Positions 9,775-26,300 of a DNA stretch of 31,184 nucleotides are shown piece after piece. The stretch's first letter is position 1, and every line of letters starts with the position of its first letter. A program made the translations under genes and the position numbers. The notes beneath the pieces were generated by a model. That model made no database searches. It was not told where the DNA came from and saw nothing but the letters and a program-made list of their open reading frames with translations. Source of the stretch: a virus; IMG/VR virus record IMGVR_UViG_3300035157_000679, positions 1 through 31,184 of that record; one strand, given 5' to 3'.

Positions 9775-9790
9775 ATTGTCAAAAAGAGCA

Positions 9791-10606
9791 ATGAGAATTA
9801 TACTTACAGGTTCAAAAGGATTCATCGGTAAGAATCTACATGACCGATTAAAAATATATGGTGAAGAAATAATAGAAGTAAACTATGAGGATTGTTTAGA
9901 CTTCCGTGACACTTTTAATGAATGGAATACCGTAGATATGATAATACACCAAGGTGCAATATCATCTACAACATGCACAGACCTCAATAAACTACACAAA
10001 TATAATGTTGACTGGTCTGTATGGTTGTTTGAACAAGCAATCAAACACCAACTTCCAGTTAAATATGCATCATCAGCATCAGTGTATGGTGGTGCTGCTG
10101 GAGCACATACTGGATTTAACTGGACAATTAATCCACTAAACTTTTATGCACTATCAAAACTAACAGTTGATTACTGGGTTCAGGATCACATGGAAGAATT
10201 TATTGGTGTTCAGGGATTCAGATACCACAATGTATATGGTAGAGGTGAAGATCATAAAGGTAACCAAGCAAGTCCTATACATACCTTTATTAAACAAGCA
10301 CAAGAGACTGGAGTAATAAAAGTATTTGAAGGATCTGATAGATTCCTAAGAGATTTTATTTGTGTAGATGATGTAGTAGAAGTTGTTCTCAACAATGATA
10401 AAGGATCGGGTATCTATGATCTAGGTACAAGTAAACCAATCAGCTTCCAAGATGTTGCAGATATGGTTGCTAAAAAATTCAATGCAAAGATAGAAACTAT
10501 ACCATTCCCTAAACATCTAGAAGAGAAGTATCAAAAATATACTAATGCTATAGAAGAATGGAAGTATTATAAGTTTAAATCAGTTAAAGATTATCTAATG
10601 GTTTAA
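9791..10606 (+). CDS. NAD(P)-dependent sugar epimerase, HldD-like (ADP-heptose 6-epimerase type)
   Basis: An extended short-chain dehydrogenase of 271 residues. G7-SKG-FIG13 is the Rossmann dinucleotide loop, and YASSASVYG (92-100) and Tyr119-x3-Lys123 are catalytic. Several stretches are specific to HldD/RfaD: QGAISSTTCTD, FRYHNVYG, EDHKGNQAS, FEGSDRFLRDF, LGTSKPISFQDVAD and IPFPKHLEEKYQ. HldD inverts C6 of ADP-D-glycero-heptose to give the L-glycero form used in lipopolysaccharide. The ATG at 9791 is preferred over a TTG at 9776. It is the only plus-strand gene of the sugar island, and its TAA overlaps the cupin stop. A relative acting on another nucleotide-sugar is possible. Confidence 0.85.
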   Translation: MRIILTGSKGFIGKNLHDRLKIYGEEIIEVNYEDCLDFRDTFNEWNTVDMIIHQGAISSTTCTDLNKLHKYNVDWSVWLFEQAIKHQLPVKYASSASVYGGAAGAHTGFNWTINPLNFYALSKLTVDYWVQDHMEEFIGVQGFRYHNVYGRGEDHKGNQASPIHTFIKQAQETGVIKVFEGSDRFLRDFICVDDVVEVVLNNDKGSGIYDLGTSKPISFQDVADMVAKKFNAKIETIPFPKHLEEKYQKYTNAIEEWKYYKFKSVKDYLMV

Positions 10607-10962
10607 TCTCCAACCATTATCCTATAACTATCTGTATCAAAATGCTGTGTAGAGAACTCAAATAATTCAGAGTGTTCCATAGCATACATCTGATGCCGTA
10701 ATCCACGATATATGTGGAAGGTATCACCAGGTTCTAGTATCTTAGTGTTTGCCTTTGATAAATCATCAGTCTCACCATAAAACAAAAGAATCCTACCAGA
10801 CTGTAGATAGAAAGTCTCATCCTTTAGTTTATGATAGTGCCAAGAACATCTCTTACCACCCTCAAAGAATAATAATTTACCACAGTACTCTTCAGTGTTG
10901 ACAATCCATTTCTCATGTCCCCACCCTTTAGTTACTATTTTAATTGGTTGTTCAGTATTCAT
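10603..10962 (-). CDS. Cupin-fold protein, phosphomannose-isomerase-type
   Basis: A single cupin domain of 119 residues. His42, His44 and Glu49 (SWHYHKLKDE) and His90 (GLRHQM) are in the usual metal-ligand positions. GWGHEKWIVN at the N-terminus resembles the start of the C-terminal domain of type II mannose-6-phosphate isomerase / mannose-1-phosphate guanylyltransferase. LEPGDTFHI is the second cupin motif. It may isomerise or epimerise a sugar phosphate, or be a binding protein; no test is possible from sequence. It directly abuts the HAD gene (TAA then ATG) and is last in the sugar operon. Confidence 0.8.
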   Translation of the reverse strand: MNTEQPIKIVTKGWGHEKWIVNTEEYCGKLLFFEGGKRCSWHYHKLKDETFYLQSGRILLFYGETDDLSKANTKILEPGDTFHIYRGLRHQMYAMEHSELFEFSTQHFDTDSYRIMVGD

Positions 10963-11340
10963 TTACCAACAAGTTCCACCTGTCTTAGTAGGAGTATCTT
11001 TAAAAAATACATGATCAGGAGATGCTTTATCATCTATAAAGATATCTGCATGGGGTTTACCCATAAGTAATTCATGATACTTAACACCCCACATTTTTAA
11101 TTGTGCTTGAGTAAGAGGTCTCAACAAATCATCTGCTACTGCTGCTGCCTCCGCATGAGGTTTATCTTTATTCCTACCCATTGCACGAGCAGTAAAGTAT
11201 ATGATGTAGTGTCCCTCATCATATAATTTATTGATCACTTCTATTCTATCCTTCTTAGGAGTAGCACCTTCATACTGACAAGTACCACACCCTTCACCAG
11301 GTGTGCAGATAGTACCATCAATATCTATACAGTATCTCAT
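10963..11340 (-). CDS. HAD-superfamily phosphatase, sugar-phosphate type
   Basis: The 125-residue protein starts with the HAD motif I DIDGT (Asp6 nucleophile, Asp8 acid/base). YFTAR supplies the motif II Thr and IFIDDKASPD is the motif IV acidic pair. It resembles small capsule and lipopolysaccharide-associated HAD proteins rather than GmhB itself. Extra cysteines (GEGCGTCQY, 16-23) follow motif I. In a heptose pathway a HAD phosphatase removes the C7 phosphate between the kinase and nucleotidyltransferase steps, and its position next to those two genes fits, but the substrate is inferred. It is joined to the kinase by an ATGA overlap. Confidence 0.82.
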   Translation of the reverse strand: MRYCIDIDGTICTPGEGCGTCQYEGATPKKDRIEVINKLYDEGHYIIYFTARAMGRNKDKPHAEAAAVADDLLRPLTQAQLKMWGVKYHELLMGKPHADIFIDDKASPDHVFFKDTPTKTGGTCW

Positions 11341-12104
11341 AGTGATTTAATATCCTCAGCAGTTAAAGTATAACATCCATAGTTTTGTACGGCAATAGCA
11401 GATGCTTTATTAGCAATCTTAATTGATGCTTCCATGTCATGTGCCTTAAGGAATTCAGCAGATAAAGCAGCAAGGAATGTATCACCAGCACCTACCACAT
11501 CAAATACATTTACATTCTCACTAGGATATAACTTATCCATATAATATGCACCTGCACCTCCTGCAGTTGTAATTAAATTATGTGGATCGGGTTGCACTCT
11601 CAAAGTAGATGCTTCCCTTTGATTGATTTTAAAGATAACATTCTGTGCTGAAAATAAATCCTTCTTCTTAGTATCTATAAAGACTGGTCCAGAAAAATTC
11701 TTACAGAAGGTTATAAGATCTTCTATAGTAACAAAACCTTTATCATAATCAGATATAACAATGGCATCAAACTGTTGCATAAGAAATGCCATTTTAACTT
11801 CAGCAACCTTTATAGGATCTACATGATCATCTTCATCAATCCTAACCAACTGCTGCTTACTGGCACTGTCAAGTACTCTCTTCTTCTTTATCAACTTCTT
11901 ATTAGTAATGTGAGTTACATGAACCCCAAACGCTTGCAAATTCCTCTTAACATTCTCAGACATACCAAGAACAGTAACTGTCTCTTCATGTTTTACAACA
12001 GGAACTGGTGCTTCTGGACTTATTCTATCAACACTACCAAAGATATAACTATCTTCACATGTCTCTCCTATCAATAATACTTTGTACTGTTTTTGTTGTT
12101 GCAT
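11337..12104 (-). CDS. PfkB/ribokinase-type sugar kinase, HldE kinase-domain-like
   Basis: Resembles the N-terminal half of HldE, which phosphorylates heptose-7-phosphate at C1. RISPEAPVPVV (27-37) is the diagnostic HldE/RfaE1 stretch. SDYDKG (118-123) and DVVGAGDTF (202-210, catalytic Asp208) are intact. The usual GGAANVA substrate motif is replaced by GMSENV (47-52), and the protein (255 residues) is shorter than the usual kinase half (about 315). The ATG at 12104 is chosen over a TTG at 12122, and it overlaps the nucleotidyltransferase gene by 50 bases. In most bacteria these two activities are one fused protein, with the kinase first; here they are split and in reverse order. Confidence 0.85.
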   Translation of the reverse strand: MQQQKQYKVLLIGETCEDSYIFGSVDRISPEAPVPVVKHEETVTVLGMSENVKRNLQAFGVHVTHITNKKLIKKKRVLDSASKQQLVRIDEDDHVDPIKVAEVKMAFLMQQFDAIVISDYDKGFVTIEDLITFCKNFSGPVFIDTKKKDLFSAQNVIFKINQREASTLRVQPDPHNLITTAGGAGAYYMDKLYPSENVNVFDVVGAGDTFLAALSAEFLKAHDMEASIKIANKASAIAVQNYGCYTLTAEDIKSL

Positions 12105-12492
12105 AATCACTAACCCTATCAAAGAATACTAACTTAGCAGCAGACATAGATCCTATTACAGACTTATTCTTCCAATCAGATCCAACAACCATGACATGTG
12201 GTTTTATAAACTCAACCATTGCTGCTAACTGAGTATCACTATCAAAGACTGCTACTCTATGTACTGCCTTTAAATTCTCAAGAAAAAATTTCCTATCTTC
12301 CACATTATATATGGGACGAGAAGGACCTTTCATTTCGGATACCCGTCTATCACTATCAATACCAACGTATACTCTGTCACCTAATGTCTTAGCATAATTA
12401 AGTAACTCAAGATGACCACGATGAAGTAGATCAAATGTCCCGTTGACAAATACTTTAGTAGATGGAACGTAAAATTGTCTGCCTATGCTCAT
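12055..12492 (-). CDS. Nucleotidyltransferase, HldE C-terminal (RfaE2)-like
   Basis: A cytidylyltransferase-like enzyme of 145 residues. NGTFDLLHRGHL (17-28) contains the HxGH nucleotide-binding motif (24-27). YVGIDSDRRVSEMKG (42-56) and RPIYNVEDR (59-67) are typical of RfaE2 and relatives that join a sugar-1-phosphate to ATP or another nucleotide. The active-site end is less standard (DYATTKTVQSI in place of the usual STT motif, though TTK is kept). It is coupled to the 2OG-like gene before it by ATGA and overlaps the kinase gene after it by 50 bases. GDP-heptose or ADP-heptose formation are both possible. Confidence 0.87.
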   Translation of the reverse strand: MSIGRQFYVPSTKVFVNGTFDLLHRGHLELLNYAKTLGDRVYVGIDSDRRVSEMKGPSRPIYNVEDRKFFLENLKAVHRVAVFDSDTQLAAMVEFIKPHVMVVGSDWKNKSVIGSMSAAKLVFFDRVSDYATTKTVQSIIDRRDM

Positions 12493-13016
12493 GGTTGGTA
12501 AGTTAGTTTAATGTTTCCTGCTATGGTTGTGCCTTTAGAACCATGCAAAACACTATGCATAATAAAGGAAGGGAAAATTATTATACTACCAGACTCTAAC
12601 TGTGGTTTATAATCCAAAGGAAAATCTGGTAGTCCACTATGAAAAATTTGGTTCTGAATATCCTTAAAGGAAGGATTGTGTAACACAGTCTTAGAGACTG
12701 GTACTGATTCATATATTATAAAACTCCACTGACAATTTGGATGTATGTGAAGTTCTTGATAATCGGTCTCAGTATAAACGTTCCTCCATAATCTGTCAAT
12801 CCTAGCATCTGTATACGAACACTGAATAGTTTGGATATTTCTAAGAACAACTTCTGTTATATGTTGCCATGTTTCAGGAGGTACATCGGTGTCAGATCCA
12901 AAACTACTATGAACTCCACTGTCCCATGTAGGTTCGTAGACACCATTCTCTATGTGAATTTTATTTAGATCAACCTTATCTTCAAAGATTGGTATAGTAA
13001 ATATATCTTTTCTCAT
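12489..13016 (-). CDS. Putative 2OG-Fe(II) oxygenase-like protein (PF13759-like)
   Basis: A 175-residue beta-helix protein. The stretch ELHIHPNCQWSFIIYES (88-104) resembles the QxHxHPxSxxSGVYY strand pair of the putative 2OG-Fe(II) oxygenase family, with His90 and His92 as candidate ligands. GSIIIFPSFIMHSV (143-156) supplies the distal His154. No clear HxD is present, so the metal site may be altered or use another residue. It lies between the halogenase pair and the nucleotidyltransferase gene, with ATGA overlaps on both sides. A hydroxylase acting on the island's product is plausible, not shown. Confidence 0.65.
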   Translation of the reverse strand: MRKDIFTIPIFEDKVDLNKIHIENGVYEPTWDSGVHSSFGSDTDVPPETWQHITEVVLRNIQTIQCSYTDARIDRLWRNVYTETDYQELHIHPNCQWSFIIYESVPVSKTVLHNPSFKDIQNQIFHSGLPDFPLDYKPQLESGSIIIFPSFIMHSVLHGSKGTTIAGNIKLTYQP

Positions 13017-14404
13017 TTAAAATAATTCCTAGTAAATTCTGGAGACGTAACATACCCATCATCAGTAAAGTTTGGAATAGAATTCCTATCAAACTTTCTA
13101 TATGTCTTAGGTTTAATTGGGAACCCAAGTTGAACTAACCAATGTAACCAATTAGTTCCACCAAATATAAAACCCTTGTATTCCATAAAGGAAGGTTCCA
13201 TACTATTCTGTAGGTTATCTAAGTATATCTTTTGTAAATCTGACATCTTATAATTATCTCTAACATATCTCCAGAACTTAGTATCCTTAGTAGACTTAGA
13301 GTAATGCATGTTTACAAAATCTATACAAGTTTCAAATAAAGTATGAACAATATTATTATACAGATCAATATCATTCTTACTATAATAACGAGACATTAAA
13401 CACTTAATTATATGATCTATCTGTTCTATAGTTATTCCAAGACCAGTACTCTCAAGTGGTTCAATAAAACCAGAAGATAATCCAATAGATATAACATTTT
13501 TATCCCAAGGTTTTTTATCATAGAATGGAGTCCAGTCAATTAACTTTAAAGAATCCTTATCAACCCTACCATCCCAATAATCTACAAAGTATTGCTTTGC
13601 TTCCTCAGGATCAGTTAACTGTCTATTAAAAACTAACCCAGATCCTATCCTAGACTGCAAAGGGATCTTCCATATCCAACCATGATCTACAGCAGGACAC
13701 ACAACATAAGGATGATTCTCACTCTCATTCTTATATGGAATGTGACCTGCCACAGCAGTGTCACAGAATAATCTATCAGTTAACTCTACAGTATCAGTTT
13801 GTTTTAATAGTCTTTTAAACCCACTACAATCTATAAAAAGATCTGCTTCTATTTTATTACCATTCTTAAGATAAAGAGTATCATCTTTTAATTGTTCTAC
13901 AGAAGAGTTAACATACTTAACCTTATCAGAAATCTTAGTTTGAATATACTTAACCAACTTACCACAATCCAAAAGAATAGCATATGATTCTAACTTCTGT
14001 GTATTAATTGTACCCCTTAAGGTAGACTCTGATAATGGTAATGCTCTATGAAAAGGAATGTCTTGGTTGTTAGACCAAGCATCTATCATTGGATACTCTC
14101 CACCAAAAAAATAAAATGGATGCCATATATTATTACCATCCTTACCCCAGTCAGGAAATAAAATACCACCCTTTAATACTACATCCGTGGCACTCATCCA
14201 TTCATGCTGAGGGAAACCACATTCATTCATATAATTAACAAACCCTAATATAGTTGCTTCTCCAACACCTACAATCTCTGGTTCCTCTTTATCAACTACT
14301 GTTAGTCTAACGCCTGGTATCTTGTTTGATATACCAGCAGCAGTTAACCATCCAGAAGATCCACCACCAACTATAACTATATGATTTACACACTTCTCAT
14401 GCAT
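13013..14404 (-). CDS. Flavin-dependent halogenase (tryptophan-halogenase family), copy 1
   Basis: Uses FADH2, oxygen and a halide to make hypohalous acid, which halogenates a substrate. In this 463-residue protein the FAD loop is VGGGSSGW (12-19). VGVGEATILGF (45-55) is typical of the family. Lys78 (LKGGILFPDW) aligns with the catalytic lysine. WIWKIP (243-248) is the halogenase WxWxIP signature. FIEPLESTG (313-321) carries the conserved Glu318-Ser pair. All key residues are present, so it should be active. The substrate need not be tryptophan. No flavin reductase is in the window; the host would have to supply FADH2. Tandem with a paralog; the stop TAA of the upstream copy shares a base with this ATG. 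Confidence 0.9.
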   Translation of the reverse strand: MHEKCVNHIVIVGGGSSGWLTAAGISNKIPGVRLTVVDKEEPEIVGVGEATILGFVNYMNECGFPQHEWMSATDVVLKGGILFPDWGKDGNNIWHPFYFFGGEYPMIDAWSNNQDIPFHRALPLSESTLRGTINTQKLESYAILLDCGKLVKYIQTKISDKVKYVNSSVEQLKDDTLYLKNGNKIEADLFIDCSGFKRLLKQTDTVELTDRLFCDTAVAGHIPYKNESENHPYVVCPAVDHGWIWKIPLQSRIGSGLVFNRQLTDPEEAKQYFVDYWDGRVDKDSLKLIDWTPFYDKKPWDKNVISIGLSSGFIEPLESTGLGITIEQIDHIIKCLMSRYYSKNDIDLYNNIVHTLFETCIDFVNMHYSKSTKDTKFWRYVRDNYKMSDLQKIYLDNLQNSMEPSFMEYKGFIFGGTNWLHWLVQLGFPIKPKTYRKFDRNSIPNFTDDGYVTSPEFTRNYFK

Positions 14405-15861
14405 TAGAATATAGGGATAGGTTTAACAATTAAATCATTCATTTTCATATCCTTTAACTTCACTATATTCAGTGGAGTCTGAGATTTAAACTCATTATAT
14501 TGTTCTAAACTTCTACGAGCAAAGAGTGGGTCGGGAGTCATCTTTGGAGTCAATTCATAACCCATTTGCATCATCCAGTATATCCAATTAGATCCACCAA
14601 ACATTGCTGGTTTACCATTAATAATTGATGGAATATTACTCTTCATATTATCAATGTAAACATTATGCTGATCAGATCTCTGATATGTTCCCCGAACATA
14701 CTCCCAGAATGGTGATTGTATTGTACTGAGATCATAATGCATTGATACAAAATCAGTACATGTCTCAAACATATTAATCATGTAGGTATTAAAAGAATTA
14801 ATATCAAACTGATTAAAATATCTACCTCTTACATATGATGCAAGTTGATTAGCACCTTCAATAATTAAAGATATACCTGTACTCTCAAGTGGTTCAATAA
14901 AACCAGCAGATAATCCAACAGATACTACATTCTTATCCCACTGATTCCTATCATAATAAGGAGTCCAATCAATAGTTCGTAAATCTTCTGGTGTTATTCT
15001 ACCATCCCAAAAATCACAAAGATACTTCTTTGCTTCCTCAGGATCAGTTAACTGTCTATTAAAAACTAAACCAGATCCTATCCTAGATTGTAAAGGGGTA
15101 TCCCATATCCAACCATGATCTACAGCAGTACATGTAGTATATGGTTTCAATTCTTTATCAATATCTTGATAAGATATACGACCAGCAACAGCAGTATCAA
15201 CAAACAAACGTCCCTTTAATGGAACTCTATCTCTTTTACTCTTGAGGATACTCTTAAACCCTGTACAGTCTACAAATAGATCTGCATCTACATAAGTACC
15301 ATCTTCAAGTATTAAACGTTCTACTTCACCATCAGCAGTATGTTTAACTTCAACTACTTCAGATTCAATATGAACAAGTGATGTATTTTCTTCTAACTTT
15401 CTCTTAAAAAACTTAACTAATTTAGTAGCATCAATATGCCACGAGTATGCTTGCTGATTCTCAAGATCAACTTCATTCTTTAATGCAGAATCATATAATG
15501 GAAGATAGTTTCTAACATCTTCACCCACATGAGATAGAGCATCACATAAAGGTACATCATGAGATGCTAGGGGAAAATAAAATGGATGCCATACTTGGTC
15601 AACACCACTACCCCAACCTGGAAATAAAATAGATGCTTTAGGAACTGCATCTGTCTCAGGAACCCATTCATTCTGATCAAACCCACAATGAACATTCATA
15701 AAGGTATCAAACCCTAGTAATGTAGCTTCTCCTACACCAACAGGTGTTGATACTTCCTTATCAATTAATACAATCTGTATATTAGGACATTTCTTTTCCA
15801 ATACTGTGGCAGTCAACCATCCTGATGTACCACCACCAACAATAACAACTCTATTAATCAT
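14404..15861 (-). CDS. Flavin-dependent halogenase (tryptophan-halogenase family), copy 2
   Basis: A 485-residue paralog of the gene at 13013-14404 with the same layout: VGGGTSGW FAD loop (8-15), VGVGEATLLGF (41-51), Lys75 (PKASILFPGW), and FIEPLESTG (321-329) with Glu326. The signature is WIWDTP (251-256) instead of WIWKIP, so the Ile is lost while both Trp and the Pro remain. It has about 22 extra residues, partly at the C-terminus (LNIVKLKDMKMNDLIV). The two copies share patches of near-identical DNA (see findings). It is ATGA-coupled to the 2OG oxygenase before it. Two different halogenation sites or substrates are the simplest explanation for keeping both. Confidence 0.88.
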   Translation of the reverse strand: MINRVVIVGGGTSGWLTATVLEKKCPNIQIVLIDKEVSTPVGVGEATLLGFDTFMNVHCGFDQNEWVPETDAVPKASILFPGWGSGVDQVWHPFYFPLASHDVPLCDALSHVGEDVRNYLPLYDSALKNEVDLENQQAYSWHIDATKLVKFFKRKLEENTSLVHIESEVVEVKHTADGEVERLILEDGTYVDADLFVDCTGFKSILKSKRDRVPLKGRLFVDTAVAGRISYQDIDKELKPYTTCTAVDHGWIWDTPLQSRIGSGLVFNRQLTDPEEAKKYLCDFWDGRITPEDLRTIDWTPYYDRNQWDKNVVSVGLSAGFIEPLESTGISLIIEGANQLASYVRGRYFNQFDINSFNTYMINMFETCTDFVSMHYDLSTIQSPFWEYVRGTYQRSDQHNVYIDNMKSNIPSIINGKPAMFGGSNWIYWMMQMGYELTPKMTPDPLFARRSLEQYNEFKSQTPLNIVKLKDMKMNDLIVKPIPIF

Positions 15862-16511
15862 GTTCTAGGTGGCAAAGGATCTTTACGCATTGTTTTATAG
15901 ACCAAAGATGCTCTTAGTCCATGATAGTAATCACCATTAGGTGGTGCTCCTCTATGAGGTATATTACCTTTGAAGAAACATATTCTTCCTGGTTTAGGAA
16001 GTATCTCTACATTCTCTCCATTAAATTCAACTATTGTTGGACCACCCCACTGTTCATCCCACCTTTTATTAACATAATAGATCCAACTAAGTCCATTATC
16101 ACAACTACAATCTTGATGTATAACAGTATCATGTATATACTGCTGACCATTAACTAATATCTCACCCAACTCTAACTCAAATGGTATAGTTGCTGTTACT
16201 GCATTGTATATCATTCCATAAGCACTGTCCTGTGCAGACTCAGACATTGGTGGATAGATTGATTGTTTAAAACATGGTACTTCTAAACTAAGATCTGCAC
16301 CCTTATCATAATCAAAGTCAGGAGTACCATCTGAATTTTCTTTATGACCACTACACAATCCATACTGCCACCCAAAACCATGTAGTATAGTTTTATCTAA
16401 ATGATAAACAAACCACCACGGAAATAAATTATCAATAACAAAGATCTCATCTTTAGCGAGATCATACTGGGCAAAATTTAATTGTTCTTTAGTGCAATCA
16501 ATATGAATCAT
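15858..16511 (-). CDS. 2OG-Fe(II) oxygenase, prolyl-4-hydroxylase-like fold
   Basis: The clearest 2-oxoglutarate oxygenase of the window, 217 residues. His132 and Asp134 (VIHQDCS) form HxD, followed by the strand SWIYYVN. His186 (NIPHRG) is the distal ligand and Arg200 (GLRASLVYK) would bind 2-oxoglutarate. GGPTIVEF and LPKPGRICFF are typical of the P4Hc/PF13640 group. It probably hydroxylates a small molecule, sugar or peptide. It sits between the carbamoyltransferase and the halogenase pair with ATGA overlaps on both sides, so it is co-translated with them. Confidence 0.85.
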   Translation of the reverse strand: MIHIDCTKEQLNFAQYDLAKDEIFVIDNLFPWWFVYHLDKTILHGFGWQYGLCSGHKENSDGTPDFDYDKGADLSLEVPCFKQSIYPPMSESAQDSAYGMIYNAVTATIPFELELGEILVNGQQYIHDTVIHQDCSCDNGLSWIYYVNKRWDEQWGGPTIVEFNGENVEILPKPGRICFFKGNIPHRGAPPNGDYYHGLRASLVYKTMRKDPLPPRT

Positions 16512-18301
16512 TGATTCTTAACCTCTATTAATAGATCGTACTCAGGAAGATACAAATACTCAATATCACTATTAGCAAGAGTGCGTAACGCATCATCGAG
16601 TGTTTCAACCAAAGGTTCTCCACCCAGATTAAAGGAAGTATTAAAGATGATAGGGCAACCAGTCTGTTCAAAGAATTCTTGGATGAGTCCATAGTAATGA
16701 GGGTTAACGTCTTCAGTTACAGTTTGGATACGACAAGTACCATCAACATGAATGATAGAAGGGATCTTCTCTTCAATTCCTGGTTGGCACTTCACAGCAT
16801 ACATCATGAACGGAGTGTCATCCATACCACGAAGATCAAACCACTCATGTACATGTTCTTTTAGAATAGAACCTGCAAATGGTCTAAAGTATTCACGGTG
16901 CTTAACATTATTAACATGATCCTTTCCATCTGGATCACGAGGATCATATAGAATAGAACGATTACCAAGTGCTCTTGGACCTGCTTCAGATGATCCTTGG
17001 AACATTGCAACGATATTCTTATCACTAATGAGTTTAACCACATCACTATAAGATGCATTAGTCACATCAGTAGCACCCCATTTCTGACAAGACTCAGAGA
17101 TATCTTCAGTTGTATAGTTATATGTAGGACCAGTATATAAATTTGTAATCCTTTCTTTAATTTTCATGTCTTCATTTACTTGATGATGTACATATAATGC
17201 TGCTCCAAGAGCAGTACCAGCATCATTACTTACTGGTTCAACAAACAAATTAATACCTTCACCCTTTAACTGTTCAAGATACCAATAATTTGCAACACAA
17301 TTTAATCCATATCCACCAGACAATACCACATTCTTATTACCACTCAAGTCAACTGCCTTACGAATCAGATCAAGAACCATCTGTTGTGATTCTGTTTGAA
17401 TAGCATAGGCAACATCTCTACGGTTCTGAAGTTTAGTTAGATCTTCAGTACCTTGAGGTGTCCTAAGATATTCATACCTACCTTCATTAACTACAGCACC
17501 ATTTGGATAAGTAGGAACTATAACATTACGATCAGAAGTCTTCCAAGCACCACCATTACCATCAGTATAAATTGTTGGAACCTTATCATTAGGTTCACCA
17601 TAGGGGAACAACCCCATAGTTTTACCTGCTTCTATAGGAGCCCATCCACAGTATTGTGTTACTGCTTCATATGCTTTAACAATACCAGCACTCTCATCTA
17701 AAAATAATTCATGAGTTCCTTCTTCACCTTCACCTTCACTATCCATCTCAGGTATATGTGCAGAACCCCACGGTCCTCTACCTGCCATGTGCTTATAAAT
17801 TGTTTTAAATTCTGATGGATAATCACAAGTAAACATGGACTCAAGTTCCCATGTCATCTCTTGTTCTCTTCCAATTTGCATCGGTACAAATGTACCTGCA
17901 CCATCTACTATAAGTGCGACTGCTGATTCAAATCCAGAACGATAGAATGCACAAGCAGCATGAAGTTTATGATGTGTTCTACTAAGATCTATAACTTGAG
18001 GATGCTCATAACTATTTGCTTTACGATCAATCAATCCTAACTTCCTAGCGAACCCTGTGTATACATCTTCTCCAGTAAAATCTACCTTACCAGCATCACT
18101 TAGAGGTTGAGTGTGAGCAATCACAAGGTAATCAATATGATCAGTATAATCTAAGATCTTAACCATAGAGGCATAAGGTCCGCCATCATACTTATTCCTA
18201 GAAAATCTCTCCTCTTCAGTAGCAAATACTATCTCACCATCTTTAAGTAAACATACACCAGAGTTATGCCCTCTAGCAAGAGCTGCAATCCATTGAGTCA
18301 T
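16508..18301 (-). CDS. Carbamoyltransferase, NodU/CmcH (TobZ-like) family, copy 2
   Basis: The 597-residue protein is of full family length. ARGHNSGVCLL and EEERFSRNKYDG (29-40) open the Kae1-like domain. His110, His111 and His114 (THHKLHAA) and the IVDGAG strand (Asp133) form the metal and adenylate site. LSGGYGLNCVANYW follows. The C-terminal domain carries GPRALGNRSILYDP and KHREYFRPFAGS. It should O-carbamoylate a sugar or similar hydroxyl using carbamoyl phosphate and ATP. It starts 7 bases after the glycosyltransferase stop with a GAGG ribosome site and is ATGA-coupled to the 2OG oxygenase. Diverged well beyond the 533-residue copy. Confidence 0.93.
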   Translation of the reverse strand: MTQWIAALARGHNSGVCLLKDGEIVFATEEERFSRNKYDGGPYASMVKILDYTDHIDYLVIAHTQPLSDAGKVDFTGEDVYTGFARKLGLIDRKANSYEHPQVIDLSRTHHKLHAACAFYRSGFESAVALIVDGAGTFVPMQIGREQEMTWELESMFTCDYPSEFKTIYKHMAGRGPWGSAHIPEMDSEGEGEEGTHELFLDESAGIVKAYEAVTQYCGWAPIEAGKTMGLFPYGEPNDKVPTIYTDGNGGAWKTSDRNVIVPTYPNGAVVNEGRYEYLRTPQGTEDLTKLQNRRDVAYAIQTESQQMVLDLIRKAVDLSGNKNVVLSGGYGLNCVANYWYLEQLKGEGINLFVEPVSNDAGTALGAALYVHHQVNEDMKIKERITNLYTGPTYNYTTEDISESCQKWGATDVTNASYSDVVKLISDKNIVAMFQGSSEAGPRALGNRSILYDPRDPDGKDHVNNVKHREYFRPFAGSILKEHVHEWFDLRGMDDTPFMMYAVKCQPGIEEKIPSIIHVDGTCRIQTVTEDVNPHYYGLIQEFFEQTGCPIIFNTSFNLGGEPLVETLDDALRTLANSDIEYLYLPEYDLLIEVKNQ

Positions 18302-18308
18302 TATAACC

Positions 18309-19481
18309 TCACTTAAGATTATTTAAAATGTCCTTTACCTGACCTTCTACACTTGATTTTGGTGCTGCATTCTTTATATCTGCCATGAATCCTTTAGAAG
18401 ATGATGGTTTCAACTGTGGTTTTGCAGTGTTCTTTGGAACACCATAAGTAGGAGAACTATTCATTCCCATGTTTGTAGTTGGAGCACAACAATCATTTTG
18501 TTGAGCAGGTTGTTTCTGTTTCTTGTAATTAGTATAGGCAGTAGACTTACCCATCCTCTTACGAACAGAAGTTAGTATAGATCTGATCTGATCTTTGTCA
18601 AGTTCCATTGCTTGATCATTATAACGATCAACTCTCTCATCAGTAGTAAGTCTAATAGGTGAGTACTGTCTCCTACCTTCTCCCACATCAATGATATCAA
18701 AATCCTTACAGTCAGGATAAGATATATTAATTGGGAATGTTGATCCAGTTACAACTGTAGCAGTCTTACCAAACGCTCTAGCAAGATGCTGACCCATACT
18801 ATCACAACCTAAGAAGTGATCAGCAGCATTAATAATACCACCCCATGTTCTCATGTCTGCAATTTGAGGTCTTGCTACTTTAATCTTTGCCTTCTCTTCA
18901 TTCTCTTCAACTGGAAAATGAATCTCACTCATTATAATGACACCATAGTCCTTCTTAAGATCATTAATAATCTCAACAATAGCATTCAAAGGAAAACTAC
19001 GAGATGTAATATCAGCAATAAAATCTTCACCAACCTGCTCAACTGATCTACCAAAAGGTTGTATAACAATTACTTTATCTTTACCTGTGCCCTGTTTTAC
19101 TTCTTCTACTGCTTGGAACCCTTGGATCGCTTCCATCTTTGCTAGTTCAATTTTAGGAACTGGAAGTTCTCTTGGTTCATCTAACTCATTGATTTGAATA
19201 TCATATGCTTGTGCAAGACTACACTTCTGATTATAGTAATGCCAAATTCTATATGGTTCTGTTGATATAATATCACGATCCTTTAATTCTGTTTGAAATA
19301 AATTCTTGTGCCAGTTATCATATACTTTACCATCTAATGTTGGATGACCCTTAAAAAAGTCTGTCCCTCCTTCACAAACGATGATAAAATCATCATGTGT
19401 TTCTGCATACTTTTCAAACGCAGGAATGGAACAAATAACTCTACCAGCTCCACCATTAACAAAAAACGCCTTAGATCTCAT
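18309..19481 (-). CDS. GT-B glycosyltransferase, heptosyltransferase (GT9)-like
   Basis: The 390-residue protein resembles GT9. An N-terminal Gly-rich loop (NGGAGRVICSIPAFEKY, 9-25) stands where heptosyltransferases have GALGD. VIVIQPFGRS (137-146) opens the second Rossmann domain. LGCDSMGQHLARAFGK (224-239) and VVTGST match the donor-binding GxDSGxxHLAAAxG...LFGxT pattern of ADP-heptose transferases. A C-terminal tail of about 80 residues is polar and probably disordered. The Asp of GALGD is not evident, so donor or activity may differ. It is the first gene of the ten-gene run, downstream of a late-type promoter, and is the natural transferase for a heptose-like donor made by the island. Confidence 0.7.
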   Translation of the reverse strand: MRSKAFFVNGGAGRVICSIPAFEKYAETHDDFIIVCEGGTDFFKGHPTLDGKVYDNWHKNLFQTELKDRDIISTEPYRIWHYYNQKCSLAQAYDIQINELDEPRELPVPKIELAKMEAIQGFQAVEEVKQGTGKDKVIVIQPFGRSVEQVGEDFIADITSRSFPLNAIVEIINDLKKDYGVIIMSEIHFPVEENEEKAKIKVARPQIADMRTWGGIINAADHFLGCDSMGQHLARAFGKTATVVTGSTFPINISYPDCKDFDIIDVGEGRRQYSPIRLTTDERVDRYNDQAMELDKDQIRSILTSVRKRMGKSTAYTNYKKQKQPAQQNDCCAPTTNMGMNSSPTYGVPKNTAKPQLKPSSSKGFMADIKNAAPKSSVEGQVKDILNNLK

Positions 19482-19514: not shown

Positions 19515-19522
19515 TATTTATC
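19515..19522 (-). promoter_or_regulatory. Candidate late promoter GATAAATA at the head of the sugar/tailoring run
   Basis: The minus strand reads GATAAATA, 33 bases upstream of the glycosyltransferase ATG at 19481. It has the same form and spacing as the motifs before the virion genes at 9723 and 28378. Confidence 0.6.
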
Positions 19523-19527: not shown

Positions 19528-19556
19528 ATTATAGGGCATTTAGTCAACTAAAGCAA
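19528..19556 (-). promoter_or_regulatory. Candidate sigma70-like promoter, TTGCTT-17-TATAAT
   Basis: On the minus strand TTGCTT (19556-19551) and a perfect TATAAT (19533-19528) are separated by exactly 17 bases, just upstream of the late motif at 19515-19522. The -35 box matches only 3 of 6 bases. If both are active, the run is read early by host polymerase and again late. Confidence 0.45.
19537..19554. repeat. Small hairpin at the end of the 177-residue gene
   Basis: TTTAG and CTAAA pair around TCAA, with GC pairs outside after one bulged A. It overlaps the stop codon at 19548. There is no U-tract, so it is a poor terminator, and it overlaps the sigma70-like spacer and -35 box. Confidence 0.4.
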
Positions 19557-20081
19557 GGGAATCTGCCCATACTGCTTAGTTGCATTAGTAGAATTAAGTT
19601 CGCTTCCAGGTATAGCATCATACCCAATAGTAAGTCTCTTACCAGAGTAGTGTGAATTATTTACTACTCTATGACGAACATTACCTCTACCAAAATATAT
19701 ATTACCAATCTCATTCTTTATCTCCCAATCCTCAAATTCAGTTGTAGTATCCTGCGGTTCTAATGCAACATACCCATGCCAAGGTGAGGAATGATTATGC
19801 CAATCTAAAACCTGATCATGGTCATGATAATTTAACCATGCTTGGAACCATATAACATCTTCATCAGGAAGATTCTCTCTTATTATACCAGTTAACTTCT
19901 TATAAATCTCTAGAAAATGAGAAGATGGACTGGTAACACTGAAGAAGTTATACAAGTAATAACTCCATGTAGTGTCTCCGAATCCATCTTCCATCAGAGC
20001 ACGGTGACAATCAGATGCCACCTTTATAATCTCTGGTTGATTCTCTTTTATATAATCAAATTTATATACCTTATAGGTCAT
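19548..20081 (-). CDS. 2OG-Fe(II) oxygenase-like beta-helix protein, 177 residues
   Basis: WFQAWLNYHDHDQVLDWHNHSS spans residues 78-99 and is rich in His and Asp; His95, His97 and His102 follow the strand that normally holds the first iron ligands. NIYFGRGNVRHRVV (127-140) gives the distal His137, and KRLTIGYD (148-155) the Arg149 expected to bind 2-oxoglutarate. The overall order fits a 2OG oxygenase, but the exact HxD is unclear. It is separated from the tailoring run by the promoter region at 19482-19547 and has no obvious ribosome site before the ATG at 20081. Substrate unknown. Confidence 0.65.
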   Translation of the reverse strand: MTYKVYKFDYIKENQPEIIKVASDCHRALMEDGFGDTTWSYYLYNFFSVTSPSSHFLEIYKKLTGIIRENLPDEDVIWFQAWLNYHDHDQVLDWHNHSSPWHGYVALEPQDTTTEFEDWEIKNEIGNIYFGRGNVRHRVVNNSHYSGKRLTIGYDAIPGSELNSTNATKQYGQIPLL

Positions 20082-20106: not shown

Positions 20107-20817
20107 TTAGTTGATAAAGCTACCACCATTAGTTGGAGATACTTCATCATCAGGAGAGTTAGGCATCATATAGAATGCTGCGTTAGGTGTAACACTATTC
20201 GCTGCCATTGTAGCAGGGAAATCTCTCAATTTCTCACGGTATGTTTTCCACTTAGCTTTAAGATCTGCTGGCATATCTTCTGTAACCTTACCATCAGTTG
20301 CTTGAAGAGCATTATTTCTATGCTTCCTAATGTCATCCCAAGTAAGATCAGCTTCTCTATCAAGTAGTTTACCTACTGGAGTGAACGGTTGAATAGTAAC
20401 ATTGCCACTTACAACCTTAACACTATCTCTATCATAGATATCACCTGGCATTATAGGTGTACCATATGAGAACTGTGGGTATCCATCTATAGCAGGAGTT
20501 CCTGAGAAGACAACGCTGTCAGTATACTCTTCTTCCTTCTCATCAATAGGCATTCCTCTTAGCTGACATATAAGTGGGTTAGTTGCACAATCAACTTCCA
20601 CCCAATCAGTTACGTCTGCTGGCATTGGACGACCATCTAATATGTCATCTTCATTTAAAGGTCCTGCCTTCTCTGTTCCATCTGCTCCAATCTGTAACCA
20701 GATCTTATCTGGTCCATCGTATGTTGCTTTACGTGTTTTACCATCTGTAAAAGCATGGTCTACCAAGAATTCATTTGGTAGTGGTAAGTCGTATTCGACG
20801 CTAATGTTAGTAGCCAT
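20107..20817 (-). CDS. Virion protein with tail-assembly-chaperone-like C-terminal domain
   Basis: A 236-residue protein. Residues about 158-203 (LTWDDIRKHRNNAL, then LKAKWKTYREKLRDFP) match the pattern of the Phage_tail_APC domain (R-x-R-N-x-L ... W-x-x-Y-R-x-x-L-R-D), found in or beside tail-fibre proteins. The N-terminal part is beta-rich and has ATYDGPDKIWLQIGADG, typical of small virion proteins. It lies next to the cysteine-rich adhesin-like genes. It has AAGGAATT before the ATG and a perfect TATAAATA promoter 42 bases upstream. Probably a tail-tip or fibre-assembly protein. Confidence 0.7.
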   Translation of the reverse strand: MATNISVEYDLPLPNEFLVDHAFTDGKTRKATYDGPDKIWLQIGADGTEKAGPLNEDDILDGRPMPADVTDWVEVDCATNPLICQLRGMPIDEKEEEYTDSVVFSGTPAIDGYPQFSYGTPIMPGDIYDRDSVKVVSGNVTIQPFTPVGKLLDREADLTWDDIRKHRNNALQATDGKVTEDMPADLKAKWKTYREKLRDFPATMAANSVTPNAAFYMMPNSPDDEVSPTNGGSFIN

Positions 20818-20925: not shown

Positions 20926-21708
20926 TCAAACGTATGTAATCTTAACAAGTCCTGGACCACCAGTACCACCCTGACCACAACAACGGTCACAATAGTTAGT
21001 CATTGCATTCTGAGCACCGTGTCCATAAGGAACTGTCCAGCAACCGCAACGCATCCAGCAGAAGTTATTCTGTTGGAACACATTAGTTCCAATAAATGGA
21101 GCAGCAGTAGGAATACTATATCTACCGTGGCAATGACAGAACCAACCTTTAGGGTTCCAGAATCCACCAGGCATATTACCCATTCCAAAGTCTCCACCAT
21201 TTTGTCCTGGAGATCTGCAGCAAGCATTATCAGAGAAGCAACCGTATGACCAGTCACCCTGAGCACATCCTCCTCTACCACCAATGGCACAGAAGTTACT
21301 TAAGTTGCACCCATTTACATATGACATACATCCACAACACCCTGTACACTCTCTTGAGTAGCAACGATAAACACCAGCAGCACAGACTGTATAAGACCAA
21401 CCTTCGGTTACATCAATAGTTTTCGTATTATAATATCCACCCTGAGCACCAACATAGGTCTGACAACGGTTACAACTGCAAGCACCTGTACCATTACCTC
21501 CAGCACCCCACATTTCAAAGGTAGCTCTTCTTACTCCAGTAGGTACTGTCCAAAGACAGCAGCAACCTGTAGAACATGGAACTGGATTACCATAAACCCA
21601 TTTAACATTCCACGTATCCAATCCAGTGGCAGCTAGTTTTGCTGGAGTAACACTACCAGCAGGTAATGTAGATCCACTAACCTTTTTATAACTTGAATAC
21701 TGTGCCAT
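20926..21708 (-). CDS. Cysteine- and glycine-rich adhesin-like protein, copy A
   Basis: A 260-residue protein with 27 Cys (about 10 percent) and many Gly. The order is: MAQYSSYKKVSGSTLPAGSV (an N-terminal segment of phage tail proteins), GCCCLWTVP, WGAGGNGTGACSCNRC, VCAAGVYRCYSREC, SNFCAIGG, CWMRCGCWTVPYG, and finally GQGGTGG...LVKITY. WTVPxG...WGAGG resembles glycine-rich phage fibre tips, where Gly loops form a polyglycine sandwich, but the Cys pattern is unusual. Disulfides formed after lysis, or metal binding, are possible. It is last of three tandem paralogs and is followed by the terminator at 20879-20906. Receptor binding is inferred. Confidence 0.8.
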   Translation of the reverse strand: MAQYSSYKKVSGSTLPAGSVTPAKLAATGLDTWNVKWVYGNPVPCSTGCCCLWTVPTGVRRATFEMWGAGGNGTGACSCNRCQTYVGAQGGYYNTKTIDVTEGWSYTVCAAGVYRCYSRECTGCCGCMSYVNGCNLSNFCAIGGRGGCAQGDWSYGCFSDNACCRSPGQNGGDFGMGNMPGGFWNPKGWFCHCHGRYSIPTAAPFIGTNVFQQNNFCWMRCGCWTVPYGHGAQNAMTNYCDRCCGQGGTGGPGLVKITYV

Positions 21709-21717
21709 TTTTAATCC

Positions 21718-22512
21718 TTAGAAGTATGTAATCTTGACGAGTCCACCGCCACCTGTACCACCCTGACCACAGCAGCGTTCGCAGTAAGTAGTCATAGCGT
21801 TCTGAGCACCATTACCATATGGAACTGTCCAGCAACCGCAACGCATCCAACATCCTCTTAGAGATTGTTGTGATACTGTTCCAATCAACGCAGCACCACC
21901 AGAGTAGTGTGATCTGTTATAACAATGACAGAATCCTCTATCATATACAAATTCAGCACCATCCCAGTTAGGAGTATGAGTTCCTTGCATCCAGTCACCA
22001 CCATTGTTACCTGGATTCATGCAGCAGCACCATTGTGAGTGACAATAAGTTGCCCATGATGTTTGTGCTTCTCCCCTTCTTCCTCCAATGGCACAGAAGT
22101 TGGAAAGATTATATCCATTTACATAAGATGAACATCCTCTGCATCCGTTACACTCTCTTGAGTAGCAACGATAAACACCAGCAGCACAAACTGAATACGT
22201 ACATCCTGCTACTGTATCAATAGTTTTTGTATTATAAAATCCACCAGATGCACCCATGTAATGATGACATCTGTTACATGAACATGCACCAGATCCATTA
22301 CCTCCAGCACCCCAGATTTGGATATGAAGTTTCTTTACACCTGCAGGTACTGTCCAAAGACAGCAGCATCCAGGAGTACATGCACCAGGAGATCCATAAA
22401 ACCACTTAACACCATATGTAGTATTAAGAGGAGACGCTAAATCTGCTCCATCGACTGATCCATCAGCCAATTCCTCACCTGTTAATTTTTTATAGCTTGC
22501 ATAAGTTGCCAT
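21718..22512 (-). CDS. Cysteine- and glycine-rich adhesin-like protein, copy B
   Basis: The middle paralog, 264 residues with 26 Cys. It keeps GCCCLWTVP, WGAGGNGSGACSCNRC, VCAAGVYRCYSREC, SNFCAIGG, CWMRCGCWTVPYG and CCGQGGTGG. The most variable stretch (residues about 150-210) holds CHSQWCCCMNPG and an insertion before GFCHCYN, and has no close match in copy A. Conserved frame cysteines with a variable centre suggest one disulfide-stabilised fold with a changeable surface. Separated from copy A by 9 bases; a GGAAGTAGGA ribosome site precedes the ATG. Confidence 0.8.
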   Translation of the reverse strand: MATYASYKKLTGEELADGSVDGADLASPLNTTYGVKWFYGSPGACTPGCCCLWTVPAGVKKLHIQIWGAGGNGSGACSCNRCHHYMGASGGFYNTKTIDTVAGCTYSVCAAGVYRCYSRECNGCRGCSSYVNGYNLSNFCAIGGRRGEAQTSWATYCHSQWCCCMNPGNNGGDWMQGTHTPNWDGAEFVYDRGFCHCYNRSHYSGGAALIGTVSQQSLRGCWMRCGCWTVPYGNGAQNAMTTYCERCCGQGGTGGGGLVKITYF

Positions 22513-22526
22513 TGGTTCCTACTTCC

Positions 22527-23309
22527 TTATGTGTATGTAATTTTGACGACTCCACCACCGCCTGTTCCACCTTGTCCACAACAACGTTCGCAATATGATG
22601 TGATAGCACCCTGTCCACCTTGTCCGTAAGGAGAATACCAACAACCACAACGTATCCAACAGTTAACAAATCCTTGATAAGAACCTGATCCACCCGCTAA
22701 GAACGGAGCATTAGTTGTACAAGTATTAACCCAGTTACAGTGACAGAATATAGATCCACCCCAGAATCCTCTGTGGTTACCCATACCAAAGTCGCCACCA
22801 TTTGACGTAGGTCCTAAGCAACACTCCCATTCAGAATAACATCCAGTCTCCCAAGATGTATTTGATCTACCACGAGCACCGCCAATGGCACAGAAGTTAC
22901 TTAAGTTATAACCATTAACGTAGGATGAACATCCTTCACAACCAGTACATTCCCTACTTAAGCAGCGATACACACCTGCAGCACAGATAGTGTAAGCACA
23001 ACCAGCAGTAGTAGATATGGTTTTACTATTGTAGTAACCACCACCAGCACCCTGGTAATGGTGACACCTGTTACAAGAACAAGCACCATGTCCGTTTCCA
23101 CCAGCACCCCAGATTTCAAAAGTTACTCTTTTTACACCATTAGGTACAGTCCAGAGACAACAACAACCACTTGTACAGTGGCATTGTTGACCGAATACGT
23201 GGAAGACATTATAGGCATAACCAGTACCAGCACCCAGAGCGGAACTAGGGACAGTACCATCTATGATCTGTCCTCCTATAATTTTTTTGTAACTTCCGTA
23301 AGTTGCCAT
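22527..23309 (-). CDS. Cysteine- and glycine-rich adhesin-like protein, copy C
   Basis: The first-transcribed paralog, 260 residues with 27 Cys. It shares the same framework as copies A and B (GCCCLWTVP, WGAGGNGHGACSCNRC, ICAAGVYRCLSREC, SNFCAIGG, CWIRCGCW, CCGQGGTGG). Its variable centre reads GCYSEWECCLGP, then IFCHCNWVNTC. CGCWYSPYG replaces CGCWTVPYG. It is headed by an AATAAATA late promoter 19 bases upstream, so all three copies are probably transcribed together and stop at the terminator at 20879. Confidence 0.8.
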   Translation of the reverse strand: MATYGSYKKIIGGQIIDGTVPSSALGAGTGYAYNVFHVFGQQCHCTSGCCCLWTVPNGVKRVTFEIWGAGGNGHGACSCNRCHHYQGAGGGYYNSKTISTTAGCAYTICAAGVYRCLSRECTGCEGCSSYVNGYNLSNFCAIGGARGRSNTSWETGCYSEWECCLGPTSNGGDFGMGNHRGFWGGSIFCHCNWVNTCTTNAPFLAGGSGSYQGFVNCWIRCGCWYSPYGQGGQGAITSYCERCCGQGGTGGGGVVKITYT

Positions 23310-23389: not shown

Positions 23390-26300
23390 TTAGACTGTGA
23401 AGACTCTCCAACCTGAGGTGTTATCGTAGAATACAAGATCGAATGCAGCACCCTCAGTGGTTACTGTCATATCAGCAGAATCACCCATAATTGGTTTGCC
23501 GTTTCTACCAATCGTTAGGTTGTTAGTATCGAATGTATTGTCACAATCGAAGAACCTAATGGTATCACCCTTATTAGGTGAAGCAGGTAGAGTAACTGTA
23601 AATCCACCACCGTTTGTCTTACACCAGCATGTCTGGAATGCAGCAGCAGTGTATGTGGTATTTACATCCACGTTCTGTAGACCTCCTAGTGGAACCCATG
23701 CAGAACCGTTATAAGATTCAAAGGCAGCAATTGTTGTGTTGTAACGTAGACCTCCAAGGATTGGAACTGCTGGTCTCTGAGCAGTAGTTCCCTTAGGTGG
23801 AACCATCTGATCAGTACCCATGTTTCCACGAGTTAAGTAACCAACAACTGCGAATTCAGTTGGAGTTGCATTGTTGGAGTTGCCACTCATAGTCTCATCA
23901 GATGAGAACTCAGAGATCGCTTCACCAATTTGACCACCCAATGAACCCAGTCTTAGTTCTGTCAAACCAGATAGGTTGAATGCGGAAGCATCCAAGGTTG
24001 CAGCACCAGTCAACTGGTTAACTGCGAATAGGTCACCAACTCGGAAGTTACCACCTTGGTCAGTAGATACGTAGAATACCTTACCTGGTCCGAAGGTGTT
24101 AGTCTCGTTACCCTGAACGACGTTTGCTTCGTTCACATCTGGGTAATTAGTTTCAACCTTGTTACCAACACCAACTGATAAGAAGTCGTGTCCAGTTAGA
24201 CGTGCGTTAGAGAACTTACTTCTAAACTCTAGGAACGAACCACCTGCATTAACATCTGCACCAGTAGTTGAGATACCAGATAGACGTGTATCCCATGTTC
24301 CAACACCTTTCTCAGGAGAGATTGTGATGGTTAAACGACCTGTATATGTTACAGGAGCAGTGTTACCTGAAGACCCACGATTCTGTGTAAAGTTTGTCTG
24401 GAATCCAGTTACAGCGTTAACGATGTAGTACCTTGGTTGATCTCCAACTCTATCAGAACCAATACCAGCAGCAGTAGTTGTAAATCCAACTGCGTCACCC
24501 ACGAGTGGTAAGTTGTTAGGATCTGCTAGGTCAAGTTCCATAATAACGCCCTTCTGACCACTAACTGATCCAGTAACGTTCTTAACTTGTAGAGCACCAG
24601 TTGTACCAGCACCGATGAATGTAATTTGCTCACCCTTAACGAATGATGTAGTACCAATACCAGTACCACCACCACCGATTGAAGGATCACCATAGCCAGG
24701 ATAGTACTTGAAGTAAACCCTATCTGCGGAAGTCTGGTCGTTAATGAATGTAGCATAAGCACCAGAGGTCTCACCAATCATGGTGTTACCAAGAGCAACT
24801 GTTCCAGTAATAGATCCAGTGGTGATGTCCATTCTGTCACCGAAGAGTCTCGCTGTTCTTGGAGTCTCATCAGTGTTGAATCCAGAAGAGATAACACCGT
24901 AGTCACCGTAAGAGTTGTTACCACCAACAGCACGGATTCTAGATCCACCACCTGAATAGTAACCCCACTTAGCATAGTATGTGAAGGAAGACACAATCTC
25001 AGCACCAGCACCCTTGTCTAGGATGAATCCAGCACCGTCACTTAGAACGTTGGTGAATGCGTCGAACACCATCGTTCTGAATCCAGTGGCGTGAACACCA
25101 CCATCAATCATACATCCAACACCAGCACCCTCACCAGTAACTCTTGCGTCAGAACCAGTTGGAGGTTCACCGAATGCTGTACAGTCCTTAACATAAGGAG
25201 ACTTGTTCAGAATAGGTGATACAGGGTTGAATGCGAAGTACCTACCACAAGCAGTAGAACCAACACCAGTTCTTACACTGGAGTATTCTAACTGAGTAGG
25301 ATTATCTGGGTCATAGTTGAATCCAACCATACCCTTGAAGTTTAGACCCTGAATAGTTGTAGAGTCAGATAGTTGGAATAAAGTAGCACGGTTGTTATCA
25401 AGTCCGTCAGCATTTAAACCAGCAGCAGGTCTGATCATTGAAGATCTTAGAGTAGATCCAACAACTGATGTGAACGGAGGAACAACAATCGGTGTCTGCT
25501 CAACGAATTCAGAAGCAGAACAACGAACAACAGCAGGAGATAGGTTAATAACAGTACCTTCTGCCTCATATGTGTGAGAAATTGTTGATACACCAACGTT
25601 TACCGTGAAGGTATTGTTGTCAACAACTTCGTTAATGTTGAAGTAAGATCCAAGAACCGTACTTGGGAAGTAACTACTTGTAATACCAACGAATACTGTA
25701 CCACCAGATACATAAACGTGCTGGAATGTAGATACACCAACGTTAAAGTTGAATGACTGAGGTGTTAAAACAGTACCAACTGTAAAGTTGTTTCCATTTG
25801 CACGAGTTCCATCTGGATAGATGTCAGTAGTGAATCCAGAATATCCTGGACATGTTAGTTTTAAGTTATCTAATCTGACGGAATCACCAGCAGTGATACC
25901 TGTCATCGCTGCACCAACAGTAACAGTACCGATACCAGACTGTCCATCATACTGGAAGGCGTTAACTAAGTAAGTTCTACCTCCTGAGTAACATCCGAAC
26001 TTAACTCTGTTAAGACGAACTGTAACGTTAGGATAAAGAATACCGTGTGAAGGTGCTGTAACTGTTGATAGACCCGTTACATGGTCATATACAAATCCTG
26101 TAATGTTTGTAATAGCACTCGCATTATCACATGCATACTTCAGAGTTCTGAAGGACATGTCTGGAGAACTACCATTGTAAGTATCAGATCCTTTCTCAGG
26201 GTCAACATAGTAGATACGAGTTGAGTTACCACTGGTCTGCCATTCTGGAATACCTAGTGTACCTATACCTAATGTTTGTCCTGTTTGACCTGCTCCTAAT

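Follow-up and report, generated by a model that had tools for sequence, protein, structure and literature searches.

A 31,184-bp virus record of IMG/VR (IMGVR_UViG_3300035157_000679, the whole of which is termed the window) carries a late-promoter-associated gene locus. In a reading we hold with about even confidence, the encoded enzymes make a heptose-type sugar, late in infection, with which the phage decorates its own tail fibers. Matches of the encoded proteins to cyanophage PHROGs (PurM, PurN, tail fibers), together with a ferredoxin-dependent bilin reductase, assign the window to a T4-like cyanophage. The locus belongs to a known kind of cyanomyovirus cluster, the S-SSM6a/S-SSM7 type, with its core, a convergent epimerase and a position behind fiber genes. 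Halogenases, numerous 2-oxoglutarate (2OG) oxygenases and "lipopolysaccharide (LPS)" genes of cyanophages have stood without a native role for ~15-20 years, with "stuffer DNA", a 2OG sink for NtcA and antibiotic protection among the earlier suggestions (PMC3037559, PMC2984593). A single late-expressed, fiber-linked locus, in which the core is constant and the cassette exchangeable, would unite the three under one testable hypothesis.

Seven constant genes around an exchangeable cassette

Ten consecutive open reading frames (ORFs) occupy the whole span of 10603-19481 on the minus strand, in agreement with the initial annotation of this DNA. From the first gene to the last, the junctions are a 7-nt gap, two ATGA overlaps, a 1-nt overlap, two further ATGA overlaps, a 50-base overlap, another ATGA overlap and an abutting pair, exactly as had been listed, which supports the single coupled operon proposed there. 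The 50-base overlap between the nucleotidyltransferase (NT) and kinase genes is counted from the first ATG of the kinase at 12104; a longer kinase ORF begins with TTG at 12122. Pfam recovered the families named initially (Cupin_2, PfkB, cytidylyltransferase-like, 2OG-FeII_Oxy_5, two Trp_halogenase, 2OG-FeII_Oxy_3 and the N- and C-terminal Carbam_trans domains), with the HAD phosphatase recognized via EcbF/BcbF and two solved homologues, and the GT9-type glycosyltransferase (GT) via its fold only. An eleventh member had been overlooked: an HldD-type epimerase gene on the plus strand that converges on the cupin gene with a 4-nt overlap.

A near-DNA search for relatives returned only one record, at 13% coverage, and homology was therefore traced at the protein level. 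Among viral loci from IMG/VR and isolates, 48 non-duplicate loci contain both ends, the GT and epimerase genes; the contigs are related, so that locus counts are not independent. In all 48, the carbamoyltransferase, NT, kinase, HAD and cupin genes lie between the two ends, giving a constant core of seven genes whose conservation argues against a chance assembly. The gene order, which was to be sought in other phages, is thus co-conserved in many of them, rather than dissolved into scattered singletons. In contrast to this constancy, the stretch between the carbamoyltransferase and NT genes has 14 different contents; it is empty in 13 loci and reads 2OG-HAL-HAL-2OG in the window (HAL, halogenase). 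At least one halogenase is found in 32 of the 48 loci, and its presence has changed at least three times on the GT tree. Compared to one relative (L103), the NT, kinase, HAD and cupin of the window are 95-100% identical and the carbamoyltransferase 96%, with halogenases of 57% and 68% identity; with another (L102), identity is 97% for the halogenases and 75-94% for the downstream genes. Judged from these sequences, the cassette is subject to mosaic exchange, as in surface-antigen loci.

A second phage lineage of ten contigs (L154, L138, L145, L150-L153, L158, L164 and L177) possesses a coupled set in the order HAL-HAL-[HldE-like]-epimerase-(cupin), in which the HldE-like part is a kinase-NT fusion in L154 (9998-15467) and a single NT/kinase ORF elsewhere. 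The set adjoins neck/sheath genes in most contigs, and another virion gene too in L154 and L158. This recurrence suggests a functional link between halogenases and heptose genes in several lineages, although the halogenases are also found alone. In L154, a NUDIX gene precedes the set, and one further contig (L181) shows a third gene order.

The initial annotation knew of no described phage system of this composition, which was wrong. Iyer et al. 2021 (PMC7824862) presented a ten-gene cluster of S-SSM6a, proposed to serve capsule decoration or a secondary metabolite, and Sullivan et al. 2010 (PMC3037559) found that T4-GCs 304, 305, 307 and 308 co-occur, without deciding between functional genes and stuffer DNA. 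The S-SSM6a/S-SSM7 locus resembles that of the window in the core, the place behind fiber genes, the halogenase, the 2OG enzymes, the carbamoyltransferases, the cupin and the HAD. S-SSM7 has a single halogenase in the cassette, where two stand side by side in the window; it also has a methyltransferase, an additional 2OG gene and a second carbamoyltransferase, the last of which is missing from the operon of the window. A second NodU-type carbamoyltransferase gene of the window lies outside the operon (5233-6834, minus strand); in relatives, such a gene is often within the locus or just downstream. The "LPS" genes T4-GC 302-308 of P-SSM2, S-CAM1 and S-CAM3 (PMC3037559) have the identical seven-gene core order but lack the tailoring cassette. 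To judge from the literature, the novel points are the assignment of the epimerase to HldD, the division into constant core and exchangeable cassette, the coupling to late promoter and fibers, the second lineage and an Arg-for-Asp change in the transferase.

Table 1. Features of the locus and of its upstream neighborhood in the window
Feature	Position	Strand	Evidence
HldD-type ADP-heptose 6-epimerase (T4-GC 308)	9776..10606	+	TIGR02197 3.7e-60; 1eq2 HldD 1.6e-65
Cupin (T4-GC 307), possible sugar-phosphate isomerase	10603..10962	-	Cupin_2 1.3e-7
Small HAD phosphatase, EcbF/BcbF-like (T4-GC 306)	10963..11340	-	9iqw capsule biosynthesis protein 1.4e-17; 1xpj 5e-13
HldE domain I-like PfkB sugar kinase (T4-GC 305)	11337..12104	-	rfaE_dom_I 8.6e-45; GAGD catalytic motif
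HldE domain II-like sugar-1-phosphate nucleotidyltransferase (T4-GC 304)	12055..12492	-	rfaE_dom_II 1.7e-31
2OG-Fe(II) oxygenase-like protein (cassette)	12489..13016	-	PF13759 4.9e-9; phrog_81 1.3e-22
Flavin-dependent halogenase 2 (cassette), predicted	13013..14404	-	PF04820 5.5e-84; PDB matches PrnA, VirX1
Flavin-dependent halogenase 1 (cassette), predicted	14404..15861	-	PF04820 5.6e-93; PDB matches LooH, PrnA, RebH, VirX1
2OG-Fe(II) oxygenase (cassette)	15858..16511	-	PF13640 1.8e-6; H132-x-D134 ... H186 (motif scan)
NodU/TobZ-type O-carbamoyltransferase (T4-GC 303)	16508..18301	-	Carbam_trans_N 3.6e-28, _C 6.5e-60; NodU 5e-39
GT9/GT-B-fold glycosyltransferase-like protein (T4-GC 302, phrog_8954)	18309..19481	-	fold match
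T4-like late promoter motif GATAAATA	19515..19522 (core 19515-19521)	-	33 nt upstream of first operon gene
2OG-like protein between chaperone and operon	19548..20081	-	phrog_2696 1.8e-36, phrog_81 1.2e-4; kept in near relatives
Tail-fiber assembly chaperone-like protein	20107..20817	-	Phage_tail_APC 5.4e-8; ATAAATA 49 nt upstream
Three tandem Gly/Cys/Trp-rich fiber-tip-like proteins, candidate decoration targets	20926..23309	-	phrog_4205
Long tail fiber protein, candidate target	23390..27547	-	phrog_9851 tail fiber 7e-254

Predicted enzymes of the core and cassette

The core probably encodes an ADP-heptose-type pathway. Profile search revealed E. coli HldD as the best solved match of the epimerase, in which HldD residues S116, Y140, K144 and K178, comprising the Ser/Tyr/Lys set and the second-base lysine, are kept as S100, Y124, K128 and K161 (alignment A7). 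The kinase and NT have the two halves of HldE as their best matches; the kinase is shorter than HldE and matches the HldA structure (PDB 4e84, 1.2e-30) with a gap of ~30 residues. The HAD has an invariant DxD motif, and the cupin an intact metal motif, G(X)5HXH(X)4E(X)6G. Profile matches of the cupin weakly include D-lyxose and L-ribose isomerases. Its closest bacterial relatives are phage-like contigs in metagenome-assembled genomes, and the rest (Erysipelotrichaceae) have no heptose neighbors, so that they offer no functional clue. The carbamoyltransferase possesses both Carbam_trans domains, with an HxxxH motif at 110. The heptose-like activated sugar proposed by the initial annotation is the likely product, strengthened by the overlooked epimerase, and the carbamoyltransferase and GT9-type genes noted there both fall in the conserved core. 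Similar to the bacterial ADP-heptose pathway (GmhA, HldE, GmhB and HldD, with WaaC/WaaF), the phage locus has an HldE-like kinase and NT, an HldD-type epimerase and a GT9-fold transferase; however, it lacks GmhA, its HAD is EcbF-like and not GmhB, the kinase and NT are separate genes, a cupin is added and the GT has no catalytic Asp.

The first gene of the operon appears GT9-like by its modeled fold, with putative heptosyltransferase activity. By sequence, it has no Pfam, NCBIfam or PDB match; its AlphaFold2 model (pLDDT 82), compared against the PDB, matched the GT9 protein 3tov (E 1e-9), WaaF (1psw), WaaC (2gt1) and TibC (4rap/4rb4). The donor-side residues D227, S228 and H232 are invariant and correspond to the D261 motif of WaaC. 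TibC is a protein heptosyltransferase, and its place among the fold matches would support fiber glycosylation; the TibC/AAH autotransporter heptosyltransferases also share the GT-B fold, an ADP-heptose context and a gene adjoining a surface adhesin. At the C-terminus, residues 320-390 make up a long disordered tail that closes with a short conserved helix of KGF...LLK type, possibly a docking element.

Both cassette proteins of the Trp_halogenase family are predicted to be PrnA-type flavin halogenases. The equivalents of PrnA Lys79 and Glu346 are invariant in the halogenases (alignment A6); halogenase 1 has a WxWxTP variant of the WxWxIP motif, and halogenase 2 keeps Lys78, Glu318 and WxWxIP. 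They share the Lys/Glu catalytic pair, GxGxxG and WxWx(I/T)P with the VirX1/PrnA-type enzymes, but are 463-485 aa long, compared to mostly 497-554 aa in the solved enzymes, and only ~30% identical to Syn9-type phage halogenases. Flavin halogenases with the Lys/Glu signature attack electron-rich aromatic positions, which makes an aromatic side chain a likelier acceptor than a carbon of the sugar. A halogenated, hydroxylated and carbamoylated heptose-like unit had been envisaged initially; its heptose-like character stands, whereas a halogenated sugar ring is doubtful and an aromatic acceptor more plausible. That the aromatic residues in question belong to fibers is a tentative suggestion. The 2OG oxygenase at 15858..16511 matches the FlmC-type profile NF052475 (4e-15) below its cut-off; a literature search on FlmC found nothing.

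Fiber genes and late promoter

Tail-fiber or glycine-rich genes precede the GT gene on the same strand in 79 of the 80 loci that have at least 3 kb of upstream sequence. The predicted fold of the fiber-tip-like protein matches the fiber of cyanophage Pam3 (PDB 7ypx, E 6e-7), in addition to glycine-rich domains of anaplastic lymphoma kinase. The three paralogues at 20926-23309 (minus strand) contain ~10% Cys, 16-20% Gly and 3-4% Trp, with many invariant cysteines, and are unusually Cys-rich for a fiber-tip protein. In S-RIM44 (L279) and S-SSM7 (L281), 2OG oxygenase genes sit on both sides of giant short-tail-fiber genes.

The T4-like motif upstream of the operon is to be compared with NATAAATA, the reported late promoter of S-PM2 (PMC2984593). 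On the coding strand, ATAAATA is found within 70 nt upstream of 6 of the 30 window genes, the first operon gene among them, versus 0.95 in shuffles, none of which reached six (0/1000). Among relatives, (A/C)TAAATA precedes the GT gene in 51 of 92 cases and fiber genes in 34 of 59, versus 0/94 for the carbamoyltransferase, 1/76 for the NT, 0/73 for the kinase and 0/63 for the cupin, all internal core genes. Raw counts of CTAAATA and ATAAATA in the window are below chance, and significance lies only in their position relative to gene starts. One CTAAATA is located inside a cassette gene (12962-12968, minus strand), and another at 5197-5203 (minus strand) may precede a downstream unit.

Candidate target and alternative explanations

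In the scheme we propose, whose product, acceptor, order of steps and purpose we infer, the kinase, HAD phosphatase and NT would, during late transcription, convert a heptose 7-phosphate-like precursor into a nucleotide sugar of the ADP-heptose type; the cupin may produce this precursor from sedoheptulose 7-phosphate. The HldD-type enzyme would epimerize the nucleotide sugar, the NodU-type enzyme would carbamoylate the sugar, and the GT9-fold enzyme would transfer it onto the tail fiber or fiber-tip proteins encoded just upstream. Further changes might come from the exchangeable cassette, whose 2OG oxygenases and flavin halogenases would act on the sugar or on aromatic side chains of these fiber proteins, the latter being the more plausible target of halogenation. 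Hosts, grazers or inhibitors would then meet a different surface after a cassette swap. We regard the fiber or virion as target as evenly balanced between right and wrong. According to a passage in PMC4515613 that cites Snyder 2009, the LPS of Synechococcus WH8102 and CC9311 contains neither heptose nor 3-deoxy-D-manno-oct-2-ulosonic acid (KDO); phage Sf-FS3, which infects WH8102, has the complete core. Given the absence of heptose that this passage reports for the host, a late heptose pathway beside fiber genes is easier to explain by self-decoration than by mimicry of host LPS. Synteny, promoter and these host data, as far as that source goes, favor the virion over a host glycan, a target on which the initial annotation did not commit itself.

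Several results weigh against decoration of the fibers by a heptose. All three Hld-like proteins score below the equivalog cut-offs (kinase 153/345, NT 109/181.5 and epimerase 204/274.6 bits), and the sugar may therefore not be manno-heptose. Sedoheptulose-7-phosphate isomerase (GmhA) was found in none of eight complete phages, five of them core-bearing, the window being a fragment; the isomerase step is for this reason proposed for the cupin. In the transferase, the site of the catalytic Asp (WaaC D13, PMC5713226; TibC D110) is taken, in a weak alignment, by Arg14, invariant in 45 of 45 sequences, so that the protein is GT9-like in fold and only putatively a heptosyltransferase. The four-Cys iron finger of TibC/BAHT (PMC4358343) has no counterpart, since only C87 and C226 are nearly invariant (alignment A1); with neither iron finger nor catalytic Asp, the similarity is one of fold only, and a TibC-type identity was rejected. 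Fiber proximity was analyzed in seven complete genomes, which are related; purM loci were left out as a control because purM itself adjoins fiber genes. Six of ten halogenases lie within 10 kb of fibers versus 3.3 expected (p=0.10, not significant), and 24 of 64 2OG genes within 3 kb of a fiber gene versus 12.6 expected (p=0.007, a moderate effect). Halogenases and 2OG genes as strictly fiber genes were thus weakly supported and abandoned as the main claim. Synteny with fiber genes could moreover reflect an insertion hot spot rather than function, namely the variable gene cluster for host recognition that lies between VrlC and gp14 and whose glycosyltransferases were assigned to host O-chain change (PMC7029224).

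That reading of PMC7029224, also one of those in PMC7824862, leads to host-surface remodeling, in which the sugar would be added to the LPS or capsule of the infected cell and would prevent superinfection or the renewed adsorption of progeny phages, a role already suggested for "LPS" genes of cyanophages and pelagiphages. Most functionally characterized GT9 relatives are heptosyltransferases of LPS, and the HAD resembles capsule phosphatases; we nevertheless think this rather unlikely, given that the promoter class is that of structural genes, that the coupling to fiber genes is constant, that no flippase, polymerase or ligase gene is seen in the operon, and that, in the cited passage of PMC4515613, marine Synechococcus LPS is said to lack heptose and KDO. 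A small molecule or secondary metabolite, as in Iyer et al. 2021, is improbable: the sets of halogenase, carbamoyltransferase and 2OG genes resemble actinobacterial tailoring genes (PMC7824862), but profile searches of the operon proteins found no scaffold-making enzyme (polyketide synthase, non-ribosomal peptide synthetase or precursor of a ribosomally synthesized and post-translationally modified peptide) or exporter, a lytic phage with late expression leaves little time, and the fiber-gene linkage would go unexplained.

Two systems might also lie side by side, with a glycosylating heptose core and with halogenases and 2OG enzymes that independently modify fiber polypeptides. Syn9, S-RIM44 and Sf-CH11 have halogenases and runs of 2OG genes after fiber genes and no heptose gene, and P-SSM2, S-CAM1 and S-CAM3 have the core without the cassette; however, the halogenases are embedded in the core operon, and the second lineage combines them with HldE/HldD/cupin in a different order, which leaves such independence a small chance. 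Stuffer or decaying DNA, which PMC3037559 could not exclude, is very improbable in view of the intact frames and catalytic residues, the core kept in 48/48 loci, the late promoter and the many lineages.

Extended to the cassette, fiber decoration would amount to a switchable system, in which a constant ADP-heptose/carbamoyl/transferase core and swappable halogenase/hydroxylase cassettes chemically retype the receptor-binding apparatus after translation; we consider this possible, though doubtful. If true, it would mean that the fibers are halogenated and glycosylated, and it would give viral halogenases, along with part of the many cyanophage 2OG oxygenases, a native function.

Misannotations of these families are propagated in NC_015287.1 (106959-107513) and similar records, where 2OG-Fe(II) oxygenases appear as "DNA endonuclease V" or "minor coat protein", the cupin as "cysteine dioxygenase" and the HAD as "phosphoheptose isomerase", a label we rejected on the basis of the DxD motif and the EcbF/BcbF-type profile matches. 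The bilin reductase gene of the window (6863-7522, plus strand; PF05996, 4e-30) is located in the fiber region, with ATAAATA 27 nt upstream.

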